A DNA stretch of 32,865 nucleotides from contig JASLZL010000110.1 of the NCBI GenBank assembly GCA_030754885.1, positions 1 to 32,865 on the forward strand, read 5' to 3'. Positions 2,132 through 9,809 of the stretch are shown one piece after another (within the stretch, counting starts at the first letter, position 1; every line of letters begins with the position of its first letter). The translations under genes were made by a program, and so were the position numbers. The stretch is from Rhodospirillales bacterium (GTDB lineage: Bacteria > Pseudomonadota > Alphaproteobacteria > Rhodospirillales > JASLLZ01). Under the pieces are notes generated by a model. That model did no database searches. It saw nothing but the letters and a program-made list of their open reading frames with translations, and was not told where the DNA came from.

Positions 2132-4099
2132 TCAGAGCTGCCGGGCTACACGCGAGCCTTCAAAAATAGCCTGTTCGAGCTGGCGCGGCGCCCAGCAGTC
2201 GCCGATGGCGTGGAGTTCGCCGACTTGCCCCTTGAGCGCCCTGTAAATATTGCGTTCGGCCCGACCCTTGGAGCACAACACGATGCTGTCCGCCTCAATT
2301 TCCCGGGTGTCGCCATCGGTCCGCCTTGCCGTGACCCCGCCTTGGTGGATTTCGGTGATCTCTTCGAGCGGCGACATTTTGACGCCGTGCTTGAGCAACC
2401 GGTCATAGGTGGGACGCCACGTCAGCAGGTCCACGTCCATTCCGACAAAGAAGGTGCTGCTGACGATTTCGACGGTGTGGCCGCGTTGAGCCAAGGCTTC
2501 GGCGACGGAGAGCCCCATATGGCGGCCGTCCCAATCGCCGATCACAATGCGCTTGCCAAGTTCGGCTCCGGCCAGCACCTGGCGCGCCGTGAACACATCG
2601 GGTAGGTCCGAGCCCGGCACGTCCGGCTTGGCATCGACCGCCCCCGTCGCGACGATCACCACGTCGGGTGCCTGCGCCAGGACCTTTTCTGCCGTCAATT
2701 CGCTTTCAAGGCGAACCAGCGCGCCACTTCTACGGGCTTGCTGCTCCAACCAGGTAACGACCTGCAGATAATTTTGCCGGAACGGCGCGCGGCTGAACAG
2801 GCGCACCTGTCCGCCAAGCTCATCGGCGCGTTCATGCAGTTCGACATCATGGCCCCGCTTAGCGGCGACGCGCGCCGCCTCGAGCCCCGCCGGACCGCCG
2901 CCGATGATGAGCACGGACTTATAGTCGGATACCGGCGTCAGGGGCTCCCACTGGTCTTCGCGCCCACTGCGGGGGTTGTAGACGCACGATATATTGCCCA
3001 CCCTCACCTGGCGATGGAAGCAGGCCTCGTTTCCATGGATGCACGTGCGGATGTCGTCGAGACGGTCCTCCATGATCTTGCGAATAATTGCCGGTTCGGC
3101 GATGTGGGCGCGGGTCATGCCCACCATGTCGGCGTGGCCTGCCTTTAAGACGGCTTCGGCTTCGCTGGGGTCGGCGATCTTGCCGATGCAGAAGACGGGT
3201 ACGTCAACAGCGTCCTTGATGGCCCGCGCGTACGGCACCAGCGGCATTTGCGGAGACGAAATCGTTGGAAAGTGGATCGATCGGCTCATCATGCTGGAAT
3301 TGGTGCCGGCGCTGATGTTGAGGAAGTCAAGCTTGCCCCACTTCAACATTTTGGTAGCGTAGCGAACGCCGTCTTCAAGGTTGTATCCGCCCGGGATTAT
3401 TTCCGTCGCGCTGTAGCGGATACCGAGATTGAAATCCGGCCCAACGGCGGCCCGCGTCGCCTCCAGCACTTCGCGCGCCAGACGCAAGCGGTTCTCTTCA
3501 GAGCCGCCGTAATCGTCCGTCCGTTTGTTTGATTTTGGAGAGATGAACTCCTGCACCAAATTTCCGTGGGCGAAAGAAAGTTCAACGCCATCAAGGCCGC
3601 CTTCGCGGCAGCGCCGGGCGGCGGCGGCGAAGGATTGGACAATGACCTCAATTTCATCGATTTCCAGTTCGTGCGGAATGTCACGCGTGCGATCCATGGG
3701 AATTGGTGACGGCCCCAGCGGCGGCTGGCCATCGGCGCCCATCACGGTGTTGCAGCCCGAATGAGAGAGCATCGTGAAGACCCTGGCGCCTTCCCCATGA
3801 ACCGCCTCTGCAAGGCGCTGATAACCCGGTATGATGCTGTCGTCGATGTTGCTTAAAAACGCGCCCGGTGTACCGGCCCCGATCGGCGCCCCGGTGACCC
3901 CTGTCGCTTCGATAATGATCAGGCCGATGCCGCCCCGGGCACGCGCCCGGTGATAGGCAATCAGACGATCGGAAACCTTGCCGCCGGCGGCATAGCCCGT
4001 GCGGTGGGCGGTCGAAAGAGCCCGATTGCGAACCGTAATGCCACCAATATCGAGAGGCGACAGGAGGTGTTGGAATCCGATATCGGACGTACCATCCAT
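2132..4099 (-). CDS. Old-yellow-enzyme/2,4-dienoyl-CoA-reductase-like flavoprotein (FMN barrel + FAD/NAD domains)
   Basis: The 655-residue protein has the full layout of the FadH/trimethylamine-dehydrogenase group. An FMN-binding TIM barrel fills about residues 1-345, with SFAHGNLVQEFISPKSNKRTDDYGGS near 175-200. A cysteine cluster follows at 353-372, then a dinucleotide domain beginning VLIIGGGPAGLEAARVA near 396-412 and a second one around RIVIGDWDGRHMGLSVAEAL. Relatives reduce enoyl groups or oxidatively demethylate amines and betaines. The Fe-S motif reads CIHGNEAC...SC (C353, C360, C372), whereas FadH has CxxCxxxC; Gly356 replaces the second Cys. The ATG overlaps the stop of the upstream CaiB gene as TAATG, so translation is probably coupled. 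The substrate cannot be read from sequence; a dienoyl-CoA or an N-methyl compound are both possible. Confidence 0.88.
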   Translation of the reverse strand: MDGTSDIGFQHLLSPLDIGGITVRNRALSTAHRTGYAAGGKVSDRLIAYHRARARGGIGLIIIEATGVTGAPIGAGTPGAFLSNIDDSIIPGYQRLAEAVHGEGARVFTMLSHSGCNTVMGADGQPPLGPSPIPMDRTRDIPHELEIDEIEVIVQSFAAAARRCREGGLDGVELSFAHGNLVQEFISPKSNKRTDDYGGSEENRLRLAREVLEATRAAVGPDFNLGIRYSATEIIPGGYNLEDGVRYATKMLKWGKLDFLNISAGTNSSMMSRSIHFPTISSPQMPLVPYARAIKDAVDVPVFCIGKIADPSEAEAVLKAGHADMVGMTRAHIAEPAIIRKIMEDRLDDIRTCIHGNEACFHRQVRVGNISCVYNPRSGREDQWEPLTPVSDYKSVLIIGGGPAGLEAARVAAKRGHDVELHERADELGGQVRLFSRAPFRQNYLQVVTWLEQQARRSGALVRLESELTAEKVLAQAPDVVIVATGAVDAKPDVPGSDLPDVFTARQVLAGAELGKRIVIGDWDGRHMGLSVAEALAQRGHTVEIVSSTFFVGMDVDLLTWRPTYDRLLKHGVKMSPLEEITEIHQGGVTARRTDGDTREIEADSIVLCSKGRAERNIYRALKGQVGELHAIGDCWAPRQLEQAIFEGSRVARQL

Positions 4100-5331
4100 T
4101 ATTTCGATCCGCTCTTGACCGTCCCACTGACCGGCCCGGGCGAAGCACCTAGCACTTCCGCTTGATGGGTTCCCAGCAAACCGCCGGCCCAGTCGACGCG
4201 TCCTGGGGTGCGGGTCAGCCTGGGGAAAAACCCTTGCATCTTGATCGACCCCAGTTCTTCGTCAGGAACCTCGATGATGGCGTTCCTGTCGACGAAGTGT
4301 TCGTTCTTGGATATCCGCTCGATGCCGAGCACCGGGGCAAGCGCCGCGCCCAGTTTTTCGAAATGCTCCAACACGAAGTCGAACGGATGGTTGATGATCC
4401 ATTCGGCGATCAAGGCATCCAATTCGTCGGCGTTTTCCAGGCGGGCGGAATTTGTCGCGAACTTGGGATCGTCGGCCAGTTCCGGCCTTCCGATCGCAAT
4501 CAATATCCGTTTGGCCGTGTTCGGCGTGCTACCCGATAGCGCCACATATTCCCCGTCCTGGGTTTGATAGACGTTGCGCGGTGAGGAGTAGTGCACGCGG
4601 TTCCCCATGCGCTTTTGGACATAGCCCACTTGGTCATAATCGACCACCGTGGCACCCAGTACCGAAAAAATGCTCTCATATATGGCAAGATCGATGACCT
4701 GGCCCTTGCCGCTGCGCTCGCGTTCGTGCATCGCGGTGAGCACCGAAAAAGCGCCATAAATGCCCGAGATGTGATCGGCTAAGCCAAAGGGGGGCAGCAA
4801 AGGCGGGCCGCCCTTTTCGCCATTGATGGCGGCAAACCCGGCCATCGCTTCGGCGACGCTTCCGAAGCCCGGCCGATCACGGTAGGGCCCGGTCTGCCCC
4901 CAGCCCGTCATCCGCAGCATGATCAGTCCAGGGTTGTCGGCGCTAAGCTGCTCATACCCCATATTCCATTCTTCCAGCCTGCCAGGCCGGAAATTTTCAA
5001 TCACGACGTCCGCCGAGCCGGCAAGGTCACGTATGATTTGCTGGCTTTCCTCGGTATGAAGGTCCAGGACCACCAAGCGCTTGTTGCGCGCCAACCGCTT
5101 CCAATCCAAAGATGAATCATTCTTCTTGTTTCCCAAGGCGCGCCTGGGGTCGCCTTTGGGGTGTTCGACCTTGATGACGTCGGCGCCGAAATCGGCCAGC
5201 AACATCCCGGAAAAGGGCCCGGCAATGATGGTCGCGAGTTCCAGAATCTTGACACCCGCGAGAGGGCGATTATCCGTGTCCGACGGTGTGCGCCATGGTT
5301 GATCGGTCACGCCGGGTGAGGGTTTCGTCAT
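4099..5331 (-). CDS. CaiB/BaiF class III CoA-transferase
   Basis: The 410-aa protein is a full-length class III CoA-transferase, which moves CoA between carboxylic acids. It contains LAGVKILELATIIAGPFSGMLLADFGADVIKVE (about 24-56), the RNKRLVVLDL and IENFRPG motifs, and LADHISG, whose Asp186 is the expected nucleophile. The track begins 61 codons earlier inside the upstream gene; I chose the ATG at 5331 because GAAAGG lies about 10 bases before it, while the ATG at 5340 would sit right against that site. It begins 38 bp after the beta subunit gene and shares one base with the flavoprotein gene downstream. It is clearly more distant from the two CaiB proteins at 7.1 and 15.7 kb than those are from each other. 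It probably activates the acid handled by this operon. Confidence 0.93.
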   Translation of the reverse strand: MTKPSPGVTDQPWRTPSDTDNRPLAGVKILELATIIAGPFSGMLLADFGADVIKVEHPKGDPRRALGNKKNDSSLDWKRLARNKRLVVLDLHTEESQQIIRDLAGSADVVIENFRPGRLEEWNMGYEQLSADNPGLIMLRMTGWGQTGPYRDRPGFGSVAEAMAGFAAINGEKGGPPLLPPFGLADHISGIYGAFSVLTAMHERERSGKGQVIDLAIYESIFSVLGATVVDYDQVGYVQKRMGNRVHYSSPRNVYQTQDGEYVALSGSTPNTAKRILIAIGRPELADDPKFATNSARLENADELDALIAEWIINHPFDFVLEHFEKLGAALAPVLGIERISKNEHFVDRNAIIEVPDEELGSIKMQGFFPRLTRTPGRVDWAGGLLGTHQAEVLGASPGPVSGTVKSGSK

Positions 5332-5369: not shown

Positions 5370-6098
5370 TCAGCGGTCGGCAAGCCAGGGAATGGTGGAA
5401 GGGCCCAATTTTGGATAGACGAAGTCGCGCAATTCTCGCGCCTCGGCCTCGCTCAACGCCGGTGTTTCGTGAACATCGCTCGCCACGCGAAGCGGAAATC
5501 CGGTCGCCTCGCAAACCGTGTCGGGGCTCTCGCCGGGATGAAATGATTCAAGTTCGATCGCGCCGTTCAGAGGATCGATCCTCAGCACGGCCCGCGAGGT
5601 GATGATCTTGCTAGGCCCGCCGATGCGCCGTTCGCGCCGCCCTGCCCTTCCGGCGGCCGTTACGCAATCGACCTTTTTTACAAACACCCGCGGGGAATGT
5701 TCGGCGCGGAACAGTACGATGCGTTTGACCACCGAATAATAGATCGGCGCCGCGAACGCCCCCATAAAGCTCTTCTTGGTCCCATTGCGAACGATGTATT
5801 GCAGGTTGATGTTGGCGTGTTCGTCGATCTGAACGGCGGACAGGAAAAACAAGCCGACCTTGCCGCGCTGCGCAAGGGAGGTGAATTCGTGACTGCCAAA
5901 CAGCAGCGGGCCACCGGGAAGGCTCCGCGAAACATTGATCGCCGAGGGTGCGGACAGACGCATCGCAAGCAACGCCCCGACCATGGGAATGGGAGATTCG
6001 ACGCCAACGCCGAAACGCTCACCGTTGCGGATTTCCCGCGCGCAGAGAACGGCCATAAGCTCTTCGGGTGATGTCGTGTCAGGCATGGACGGAGACAT
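5370..6098 (-). CDS. Class I CoA-transferase-like beta subunit (GctB/IpdB type)
   Basis: About 242 aa, matching the beta subunit of glutaconate-CoA-transferase-type enzymes: RNGERFGVGVESPIPMVGALLAMRLSAP at about 24-51, SAVQIDEHANIN in the middle, and FHPGESPDTVCEATGFPLRV near the C-terminus. True transferases carry a catalytic Glu just after the APN segment (VESG in the Acidaminococcus enzyme, from memory). Here the stretch reads APSAINVSRSLPGG with no Glu, so the protein may not form the usual glutamyl-CoA intermediate. The IpdAB hydrolases share this fold and use a Glu on the other subunit. The start is uncertain: 6098 has AAAGG 9 bases upstream, while an ATG at 6086 overlaps the alpha stop. 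Both overlap the alpha gene, as expected for a coupled heteromer. Confidence 0.85.
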   Translation of the reverse strand: MSPSMPDTTSPEELMAVLCAREIRNGERFGVGVESPIPMVGALLAMRLSAPSAINVSRSLPGGPLLFGSHEFTSLAQRGKVGLFFLSAVQIDEHANINLQYIVRNGTKKSFMGAFAAPIYYSVVKRIVLFRAEHSPRVFVKKVDCVTAAGRAGRRERRIGGPSKIITSRAVLRIDPLNGAIELESFHPGESPDTVCEATGFPLRVASDVHETPALSEAEARELRDFVYPKLGPSTIPWLADR

Positions 6099-6906
6099 CG
6101 GCATCGGCCTTTTGGGGCGATCGAAGTCCCTCGACATAGCGCACCATGCTGTCGGCCGACTTGGCCGCGGCGAGATAGGCCTCCACCGCGCCTCTATCCT
6201 CGGCATAATGTCTCGGACAGGCCAAGGGACGAGCGCCGCCCGGTGCAACCACGACAGCATCGAAATACATTCCGGGTATGACTTGCTCGTCCGCCGCCAA
6301 ACCGTCCAGTGCGTCGTCCCGAATTTCCTCGACCGTCACGATGACGTGCCCGGCCGCCTGCACGATCAGACGGTCCTCGTTATGGATCGTTGTCACCACG
6401 TTGCCGTCGCGATCACCCCGCAAGGCGTGGATAATGGCGAAGTCGGGGCGCAGAGAAGGCGCGATGACGACCTCGTAGTCAGGGTCATAGGGGTCGTCGA
6501 TCACCTTCAGCTCCGCACGCTCTGCCAACATGTCGGAACCGAATAGGCCCAAGATAGGTGTGAAGGAGAAGCCGGCCGCACCGGCCCTCAACTGCATCTC
6601 AATAAGGGGACAGGAGGACTCGATCAATCGGAGGCCTCCGTCTTCGACCGCCCGCAGATGATTGCGGGCCGATCCGTGACTGCCCAGCACGAAGGCCCCG
6701 GTTTCAACCACGCCGACACAGCCCGCCGCGATCAAAAGATCAACAGCGAAACCCGCGGTCGGAACCCCGATCACGTGCAGGCCCGTTCGCTGCTGACGGA
6801 TCAACTCGCGCACCGCTTCCATCGGGTTGAATTTTGTGACAGCGACCGAAGCACCATCAGGAATGGCACCCATGGCATCGGCCAGGGTCGTCATGCGTGC
6901 GCTCAA
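6079..6906 (-). CDS. Class I CoA-transferase-like alpha subunit (GctA/IpdA type), TTG start
   Basis: This 275-aa protein matches the alpha subunit of GctA-like CoA-transferases: an N-terminal GASVAVTKFNPMEAVRELI strand-helix, the GLHVIGVPTAGFAVDLLIAAG unit, GSHGSARNHLRAVEDGGLRLIESS and LRAGAAGFSFTPILG. Glu96 in RLIESS lies close to where, as I recall it, IpdA keeps its catalytic Glu (residue 105). The track start at 7236 is far too early. A near-perfect AGGAGG ends 5 bases before a TTG at 6906, which I take as the start; the ATG at 6921 has no ribosome-binding site and the ATG at 6894 is too far from it. It is the first gene of the operon and faces the CaiB gene at 7097 across a 190-bp divergent spacer. 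Confidence 0.82.
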   Translation of the reverse strand: MSARMTTLADAMGAIPDGASVAVTKFNPMEAVRELIRQQRTGLHVIGVPTAGFAVDLLIAAGCVGVVETGAFVLGSHGSARNHLRAVEDGGLRLIESSCPLIEMQLRAGAAGFSFTPILGLFGSDMLAERAELKVIDDPYDPDYEVVIAPSLRPDFAIIHALRGDRDGNVVTTIHNEDRLIVQAAGHVIVTVEEIRDDALDGLAADEQVIPGMYFDAVVVAPGGARPLACPRHYAEDRGAVEAYLAAAKSADSMVRYVEGLRSPQKADADVSVHA

Positions 6907-7096: not shown

Positions 7097-8311
7097 ATGA
7101 GTGGTGCCTTGGAAGACATCAGGGTTTTCGACCTGTCGCGCATTCTGGCCGGACCCGCCTGTACGCAGATTCTGGGCGATCTGGGGGCCGAGGTGATCAA
7201 GGTCGAACGTCCCGGCGTCGGCGACGACACCCGCAAATGGGGACCGCCCTACCTCAAGGACGCCGACGGTCGCGAAACCACGGAAAGCGCCTATTACCTG
7301 GCCATCAACCGCAACAAGCGCTCAATCACGCTCGATATCACCAAGCCCGAGGGCCAGGAACTGGCACTGCGCCTGATTGAGCATTGCGACGTCTTGATTG
7401 AAAACTTCAAGGTCGGCGACCTGGCGCGCCGCGGCCTCGGCTATGAGCAGCTTCGAGAGCGCTTTCCGCGCCTAATCTATTGTTCGATCACAGGCTTTGG
7501 GCAAACCGGACCTTACAAGGATCGTCCCGGCTACGACTACATGGCCCAAGCCATGGGCGGCATCATGAGCGTCACCGGAGATGCCGATGGCTCGCCGATG
7601 AAGGTCGGTGTCGGCATCGCCGACATCATGACCGGCATGTACGCAACATCGGCAATCCTGGCCGCGATCCACCATCGCACGGTCACCGGCAAGGGCCAGT
7701 ATATCGACATGGCGCTCCTCGATTCCCAAGTCGCGTGGTTGTCATCGAGCGGGCAGAACTACCTGACCAGCCGCGAGCCCGTACCCCGGTTCGGCAACGC
7801 CCATCCCAACATTGTCCCCTATCAGGTCTTTCCCTCGGCCGACGGCCACGTCGTCATCGCCGCCGGCAACGACGCGCAATTCCGCCGCCTGTGCGACTTC
7901 GCCAACCTACCCGAGCTGGCCGACGACGAACGTTTCGCCACCAATGCGGCCCGGATACGCAACCGCGATGCACTGATCCCCCTCATCGAAGACGCCGTTG
8001 TCCGTCATCCGTCGGCCCATTGGCTGGAAGGATTGGAAGGGGTCAAGGTACCGGCCTGTCCCATCAACACCATCGCCCAAGTCTTCGCCGACCCCCAAGT
8101 CCGCCACCGGGGCATGGAGATCGCGCTGACCCACCCAGAGAGCGCGGCCGCCACCCCCTTGATCGCCAGCCCGATCAAGATGTCGGACACGCCGCCCGAA
8201 TACCGCCGCGCGCCGCCGACCCTGGGCCAGCACACCGATGAGGTGCTGGGCGAAATGCTGGGCCTCGGGGCCGACGAAGTGGCTGCCCTTAGAGACGACG
8301 GCGTGGTGTGA
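7097..8311 (+). CDS. CaiB/BaiF class III CoA-transferase, copy 1
   Basis: The 404-aa protein is a complete class III CoA-transferase: DIRVFDLSRILAGPACTQILGDLGAEVIKVERPG (7-40), RNKRSITLDI, IENFKVGDLARRGLGY, and the nucleophile region GIADIMTG with Asp176. It probably transfers CoA from a dicarboxyl-CoA donor such as succinyl-CoA to the pathway acid, but the acceptor cannot be deduced. The ATG at 7097 follows AAGGA by about 11 bases. The D-aminoacylase gene begins 13 bp after its stop, so the two form an operon. Residues 18-148 differ from the paralogue at 15739 at only 5 of 131 positions, while the C-terminal half is far less alike. Confidence 0.93.
   Translation: MSGALEDIRVFDLSRILAGPACTQILGDLGAEVIKVERPGVGDDTRKWGPPYLKDADGRETTESAYYLAINRNKRSITLDITKPEGQELALRLIEHCDVLIENFKVGDLARRGLGYEQLRERFPRLIYCSITGFGQTGPYKDRPGYDYMAQAMGGIMSVTGDADGSPMKVGVGIADIMTGMYATSAILAAIHHRTVTGKGQYIDMALLDSQVAWLSSSGQNYLTSREPVPRFGNAHPNIVPYQVFPSADGHVVIAAGNDAQFRRLCDFANLPELADDERFATNAARIRNRDALIPLIEDAVVRHPSAHWLEGLEGVKVPACPINTIAQVFADPQVRHRGMEIALTHPESAAATPLIASPIKMSDTPPEYRRAPPTLGQHTDEVLGEMLGLGADEVAALRDDGVV
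7148..7540 (+). repeat. Direct repeat, copy A: near-identical 5' part of the two CaiB genes
   Basis: This stretch (codons 18-148 of CaiB copy 1) matches 15790-16182 closely at the DNA level, including many third positions; for example GAGCATTGCGACGTCTTGAT is shared exactly. Outside the stretch similarity falls off clearly. Both copies lie in the same orientation about 8.6 kb apart. Confidence 0.8.
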
Positions 8312-8324
8312 GAGGGAGAGAACC

Positions 8325-9809
8325 GTGACCGACAAGGGCTATTACGACATCATCATCCGGGGCGCCACGGTCATCGATGGCTCGGGCGCTCCGGGAAGCC
8401 TCGCTGACGTCGCCGTGTCGGACGGGCGCATCGCCGACGTGGGCGAACTTTCCGGCCTTTCGGCCACCCGCGAGATCGAGGCCGGGGGCCTGGTCGTGGC
8501 GCCCGGTTTCATCGATTCCCACACCCACGACGACCGGCTATTGCTTTCCGATCCGACCATGGCGCCCAAGGCGAGCCAAGGCGTGACCACGGTGGTCGCC
8601 GGCAACTGCGGTATCTCGCTCGCGCCGCTCCGCGCCAAGGGCACACCGCCGCCGCCCCTTAATTTGCTTGGCGGCGAGGACTGGTACCGCTTCGGCTCCT
8701 TCGCCGACTATCTCGACCATGTCGACGCCAACCCCGCCGCCGTCAACGCCCTCTTCCTGGTCGGCCACATGACCCTTCGGGTCGGGGCCATGGACACCTT
8801 GGATCGCGGCGCCAGCGACCGCGAGATCGCAGCCATGCGCGAAAGGCTTGCCGAGGCCCTGGACGCCGGGGCGGCGGGGCTGAGCACGGGTCTCGCCTAT
8901 GACCCCTCGCGCGCCGCCCCGACCGAAGAAGTCATCGCACTCGCCGAACTACTCGGCCCGGCGGGCGGCATCTATGCCACCCATATGCGCAACGAGAGCG
9001 ACGCTGTCACCGAGTCGGTGGAAGAAACCCTCAAGATCGGCCGGTGCGCCGGGGCGCGGGTGGTGATCTCGCACCACAAGGTGATGGGCCGGCGCAATTG
9101 GGGCATGACCCGCCAGACCCTGGCGCGTATCGAGGAGGCGCGTGCCGGGCAACCGGTGGCCCTCGACGTCTACCCCTACGTTGCCTCGTCGACGGTGCTG
9201 AACCCGCGCACCGCAGCTAGTGCGACGCGCACCGTCGTGCTGAGTTCCGGGGCACGGCCCGACCTCGCCGGCCTTGATCTCGACGAATGCGCCCACCGCC
9301 TTGGCTGCACCGAAGCGAAGGCCATCGAGCGCCTGCAACCGGCGGTCGGGCTCTACTTTTCGATGGACGAAGACGACGTTAAGCGCGTCCTCGCCTACCC
9401 CGGCACCATGATCGGCTCCGACGGCCTGCCCCACACCGATATGCCGCACCCACGCCTGTGGGGCACCTTCCCCCGTGTCCTCGGCCACTATTGCCGTGAG
9501 CTCGGCCTGATAACCTTGGAAGACGCGGTGCACCGCATGACCGGCCTCGCGGCCCGCGAATACGGCCTATCCAAGCGCGGCCTGGTGCGGCCGGGCTACC
9601 ACGCCGACCTGGTCATCTTCGATCCCAAAACCGTCGCCGACCGCGCCACCTTCGAAGACCCCATCCAACCCGCCGCCGGCATCGAGACGGTGCTGGTGGC
9701 CGGCATCCCCGTGTGGGAAGGCGGCCAACCGACCGGCGAACGCCCCGGACGGGCGCTGAGGCGGGGGGAGTTGCGCCCTTGCGGGGCGGCCGCGCCGGGG
9801 CGGGATTAA
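8325..9809 (+). CDS. N-acyl-D-amino-acid deacylase (D-aminoacylase, amidohydrolase superfamily)
   Basis: The 494-aa protein hydrolyses, by family, the amide of N-acyl-D-amino acids in the cytoplasm to give a fatty or acetic acid and a D-amino acid. All metal and catalytic residues known from the Alcaligenes D-aminoacylase are present at almost the same numbers: His66 and His68 (DSHTHDD), Cys95 (GNCGIS), His220 (YATHMRNESD), His250 (VISHHK) and Asp366 (GSDGLPHTD). The N-terminal beta sandwich begins YDIIIRGATVIDGSG and is completed by the C-terminal PGYHADLVIFD segment. The track start lies in the upstream gene; I use the GTG at 8325, preceded by GAGGGAGAG and 13 bp after the CaiB stop. Acyl and amino-acid preference are not readable. 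The inverted repeat of a mobile element starts 5 bp after its stop. Confidence 0.93.
   Translation: MTDKGYYDIIIRGATVIDGSGAPGSLADVAVSDGRIADVGELSGLSATREIEAGGLVVAPGFIDSHTHDDRLLLSDPTMAPKASQGVTTVVAGNCGISLAPLRAKGTPPPPLNLLGGEDWYRFGSFADYLDHVDANPAAVNALFLVGHMTLRVGAMDTLDRGASDREIAAMRERLAEALDAGAAGLSTGLAYDPSRAAPTEEVIALAELLGPAGGIYATHMRNESDAVTESVEETLKIGRCAGARVVISHHKVMGRRNWGMTRQTLARIEEARAGQPVALDVYPYVASSTVLNPRTAASATRTVVLSSGARPDLAGLDLDECAHRLGCTEAKAIERLQPAVGLYFSMDEDDVKRVLAYPGTMIGSDGLPHTDMPHPRLWGTFPRVLGHYCRELGLITLEDAVHRMTGLAAREYGLSKRGLVRPGYHADLVIFDPKTVADRATFEDPIQPAAGIETVLVAGIPVWEGGQPTGERPGRALRRGELRPCGAAAPGRD

Follow-up and report, generated by a model that had tools for sequence, protein, structure and literature searches.

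The window, as we call the whole stretch of 32,865 nucleotides analysed here from a Rhodospirillales genome, carries two adjoining genes whose products have the class I CoA-transferase fold and are best seen as the Cys form of a new Cys/Sec variant of it. We think that the pair is probably a heteromeric acyl-CoA enzyme that has lost the catalytic Glu of the beta subunit and uses the thiol of alpha Cys99 instead. On balance, it would belong to a previously unlisted selenoprotein family with this fold, in which an alpha Sec (Cys in the window) at the position of IpdA Glu105 acts covalently on acyl-CoA; this would add one more catalytic solution to those of the Glu transferases, AibAB and IpdAB.

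Both genes lie on the minus strand, in a compact unit of four. The alpha subunit (275 aa; positions 6079 to 6906; PF01144, E=2e-20) starts at a TTG preceded by AGGAGG, and the beta subunit (242 aa; 5370 to 6098; PF01144, 24.2 bits) more likely begins with an ATG at 6086, in overlap with the alpha stop. They are followed by a CaiB-type class III CoA-transferase gene (4099 to 5331, minus strand; PF02515, E=7e-117) and by the final gene of the apparent operon, coding for an OYE/2,4-dienoyl-CoA-reductase-like flavoenzyme (2132 to 4099, minus strand; PF00724, with TIGR03997 under its cut-off). On the plus strand, positions 7097 to 9809 hold another CaiB-type transferase gene and then an amidohydrolase-family gene, which run divergently from the operon. 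The PF01144 fold in adjoining A and B genes is the arrangement of class I (GCT-type) CoA-transferases, and the best solved relatives of both subunits, all distant, are AibAB, GctAB and IpdAB. In Foldseek, the AF2 model of alpha (pLDDT 88.8) matched AibA, GctA and IpdA with TM values of 0.84-0.86 by query length, and that of beta (pLDDT 84.0) matched GctB, AibB and IpdB with 0.76-0.80. We found no alpha relative above 45% identity in the order (297 genomes), in the class (385 genomes) or among the best named-genome matches, and a single-sequence scan of genome contigs gave no match.

The first-pass annotation held that the beta subunit has no Glu at the catalytic site of glutaconate CoA-transferase, and our alignments agree in either register. 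At APSAINVSRS (residues 50-59; 5922 to 5951, minus strand), the site of GctB Glu54 and AibB Cys56, the GctB Glu54 column is occupied by Asn55 in the pairwise alignment or by Arg58 in the profile alignment; the local sequence is IIVESG in GctB (with the catalytic Glu), LACVGS in AibB (with Cys56) and INVSRS in the window. The sole conserved Glu in the vicinity is the near-invariant Glu71 (5886 to 5888, minus strand), whose counterpart in GctB is another Glu, not the catalytic one. We rejected Glu71 as a displaced transferase Glu because its GctB counterpart coexists with the catalytic residue; thus the only nearby candidate for another beta Glu in the transferase position, which the same annotation had named as the finding that would speak against it, is ruled out by alignment. 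A Glu-anhydride mechanism is unlikely for this pair.

In the alpha subunit, residue 96 is indeed the Glu that had been read in RLIESSCP (codon 6619 to 6621, minus strand), but its proposed proximity to the catalytic Glu of IpdA did not survive the alignment with GctAB and IpdAB that had been suggested as a check. Glu105 is reportedly the catalytic base of IpdA. The wild-type structure (6co6, REMDE) and 6coj (REMDA), entitled 'IpdAB E105A COCHEA-CoA complex' in the PDB, differ in the profile alignment precisely in the column of Cys99, and therefore IpdA Glu105 corresponds to Cys99 (codon TGT; 6610 to 6612, minus strand), while Glu96 is aligned with the E of REM. Column 96 is Asp or Glu in 127 of the 128 Cys/Sec rows and in all 12 other rows, including relatives whose beta keeps its Glu, so that it has no discriminating value; on these two grounds we rejected Glu96 as the IpdA residue. 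Cys99, three residues further on and absent from the earlier annotation, turned out to be the informative position: of the 128 Cys/Sec rows, 105 have Cys and 23 have Sec in this column, which holds Asn, His, Glu or Ser in GctA-like relatives. In the alpha model Cys99 opens a helix (residues 99-111) that comes after a strand, a setting that would suit an active-site thiol held at a helix N-terminus, and this modelled position suggests that Cys99 is placed in the active site.

Judging from the gene sequences, the Cys99 column is Sec in anaerobic relatives. A single TGA, precisely at the Cys99 codon, interrupts the alpha reading frame of six named relatives, giving the motifs DSTUP (L042, from Chloroflexi), ETIUP (L049, L092, L106 and L114) and EHTUP (L111). 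In a 297-genome sample of the phylum of L106, the 18 top matches all have one in-frame TGA, always in this column, and the two sets together comprise 23 distinct Sec sequences. The UGA is followed by CTCCAGGCTGG in all of the first six Sec genes, and among 74 Cys homologues with LQA CTCCAGGCT is seldom found. A hairpin with the core CUCC-AGG-CUGG lies about 15-20 nt beyond the UGA in nearly all Sec sequences; in RNAalifold, the 23 Sec sequences gave this hairpin at -7.4 kcal/mol and 102 Cys sequences gave none, and its outer pair is 96% paired in Sec genes (as GC, AU or CG) versus 16% in Cys genes. Past the UGA, dN/dS is 0.05-0.32 (pairs with finite dS), so purifying selection continues there. 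All of the first six Sec genomes have SelA; five of them have SelB, which in the sixth is split over contig ends. Of another 17 Sec genomes, 15 have SelB, although it is also common in that phylum at large (16 of 18 non-carriers). SelA occurs in 8 of 29 genomes with the Cys form, and the tRNA-Sec was weak in two of the first six Sec genomes. The relatives, and not the window gene itself, thus combine a UGA in the Cys column, a SECIS-like hairpin and genomic Sec machinery, as selenoproteins do. Since 23 distinct genes share one column, dN/dS is low after the TGA and the genomes have Sec machinery, we rejected sequencing error, pseudogenization and code change as explanations of the TGA. From the recurrent TGA, the purifying selection, the hairpin and the Sec machinery together, we take Cys99 to be, very probably, the catalytic residue of the Cys/Sec subfamily. 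In the genome of the window, where the alpha codon is TGT, selD, tRNA-SeC and selA stand side by side (G000:C13:5500-12500, locus L130), and a search for selB found none, perhaps owing to an assembly gap.

The Cys and Sec forms belong together. Maximum-likelihood analysis of 57 alphas gave a 42-row clade (support 100/99) that consists exclusively of Cys or Sec forms. It includes the window alpha, on a long branch, whose sister is the Sec protein from Chloroflexi, with 43% identity between the two (support 99/92). Well-supported branches imply at least two Cys/Sec exchanges, and GctA, AibA, IpdA and the etn proteins fall outside. The loss of the beta Glu is shared beyond the window: according to an automated table of the collected pairs, alpha Cys/Sec is paired with beta Leu, Ile, His, Tyr, Phe and a few others, never with Glu, and seven of eight GctAB-like pairs with alpha Asn or His have beta Glu in the column, the eighth having it one residue off. 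A strict exchange of beta Glu for alpha Cys across the superfamily was rejected, because in two etn clusters (L177:11977-13718 and L178:11974-13721) the Cys99 column of the alpha is Cys (ESCC) while the beta keeps its Glu (VEG); outside the clade the swap is not absolute. A Cys-type pair is also present in Paracoccus denitrificans PD1222 (WP_011750822 and WP_011750821). Two further pairs were noted: one in the phylum sample around L106 (L151, G881) has alpha Glu with beta Gly, as in IpdAB, and a paralogue in the genome of the window (L003, G000:C32), outside the main clade, has EGACQ in alpha, with Cys in the column, and beta Gly with a long GCT-type loop.

What reaction might the pair catalyse? 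To our knowledge, no member of the Cys/Sec clade has a measured activity. By alignment and homologous fold, Cys99 would face the acyl-CoA pocket from the helix N-terminus, where it may be ionised and act as a nucleophile on the acyl group; this is the simplest reading because the residue exchanged between Cys and Sec sits at the IpdA Glu105 site and the transferase Glu has been lost. As the most likely reaction among several, we tentatively propose that a C-C bond is cleaved in retro-Claisen fashion, as by IpdAB, with an acyl-Cys/Sec intermediate like that of thiolases; C-S or C-X cleavage and acyl transfer by way of acyl-Cys are near rivals. The CaiB and flavoenzyme genes could provide charging and reduction of the substrate. 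The genomic context is no more than suggestive here: the CaiB gene behind the pair, to which the earlier reading had appealed, is a recurrent partner, lying near 20 of 80 related loci.

One of these rivals is true CoA transfer, with Cys/Sec in place of the beta Glu as thioester nucleophile, so that an acyl-Cys/Sec enzyme forms and not an anhydride. The pair shares with glutaconate CoA-transferase (GctAB, class I) the fold, the two-gene order and PF01144, the loss of Glu coincides with the gain of Cys/Sec, and the etn relatives with alpha Cys are annotated as, and thought to be, CoA-transferases. However, the residue in question stands at the alpha position of IpdA Glu105 and not at that of beta Glu54, and the operon already has a CaiB transferase, which is also a frequent neighbour. 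We regard this alternative as possible, if unlikely. The window pair further differs from GctAB in Cys/Sec where GctA has Gln and in a beta loop about 19 residues shorter, and from the etn pair in that the latter lies outside the clade. A second one, which we also consider improbable though worth keeping in mind, is a C-S or C-halogen cleaving or redox acyl-CoA enzyme, in which Cys/Sec would attack the acyl chain by a logic like that of glycine reductase. Selenoproteins are for the most part regarded as redox proteins (PMC13188914), a Paenibacillus member has as neighbours genes for a sulfonate-type ABC transporter and a luciferase-like monooxygenase and one weakly like cysteine dioxygenase, and the etn (ethene/vinyl chloride) clusters act on CoM thioethers, in a coenzyme M pathway whose late steps are predicted. 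Yet such neighbourhoods number just two, sulfur genes are absent from the Sec loci, and there is no conserved resolving Cys or CxxC.

The reading of the first-pass annotation, an IpdAB-type C-C hydrolase with alpha Glu96 as the base and hydrolysis by water, now appears very unlikely. The likeness to the COCHEA-CoA hydrolase of Mycobacterium and Rhodococcus is real in the fold (the alpha model resembles IpdA within the TM range given above), in the use of the alpha active-site position and in the loss of the beta Glu; in RHA1 IpdB this Glu is replaced by Gly57, and no CoA transfer was detected (mBio 2017, PMC5380842). But Cys or Sec, and not Glu, occupies the Glu105 position, the acidic residue at 96 is found everywhere, IpdA lies outside the clade, and a steroid (HIP) gene neighbourhood with genes such as EchA20 or IpdC is absent from the operon; the neighbours are the CaiB, OYE-type flavoenzyme and amidohydrolase genes. 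Of the view that the pair is a hydrolase and not a transferase, what stands is the missing transferase Glu and an alpha active site at the IpdA position; Glu96 was the wrong residue. Least probable of all is a decarboxylase like AibAB (3-methylglutaconyl-CoA decarboxylase) with beta Asn at the Cys56 site mimicking the active C56N variant of AibB (PMC7756340), since, although AibA is the best alpha match in the PDB by sequence and its partner too has replaced the beta Glu, AibA has Gly in the Cys/Sec column, which leaves the selenium residue unexplained, and neither AibB Cys56 nor Glu72, with its loop, has a counterpart in the window beta.

By motif, then, the pair is not a GCT-type transferase, an IpdAB or an AibAB. 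If our proposal is right, selenium extends to a fold absent from the 119 prokaryotic selenoprotein families inventoried in 2026 (PMC13188914); that inventory takes in the families of Haft and Tolstoy 2025 and lists no CoA-transferase, although the 2026 groundwater survey that it cites may mention one; the deep-Sep paper (PMC12013277) has none among its selenoproteins. NCBIfam holds no dedicated model for the Sec proteins, because they score far under the cut-offs of the nearest models. Sec would mark the catalytic atom and therefore show which residue to mutate in many genes annotated just as 'CoA transferase'. The fold could thereby be read as a code, in which alpha Asn, His or Gln with beta Glu denotes a transferase, alpha Gly with beta Cys a decarboxylase, alpha Glu with beta Gly a hydrolase, and alpha Cys or Sec without beta Glu a further class. 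No pathway emerged from the gene neighbourhoods of the Sec loci; a calcineurin-like metallophosphoesterase-type gene lies downstream of beta in all four of L049, L092, L106 and L114.
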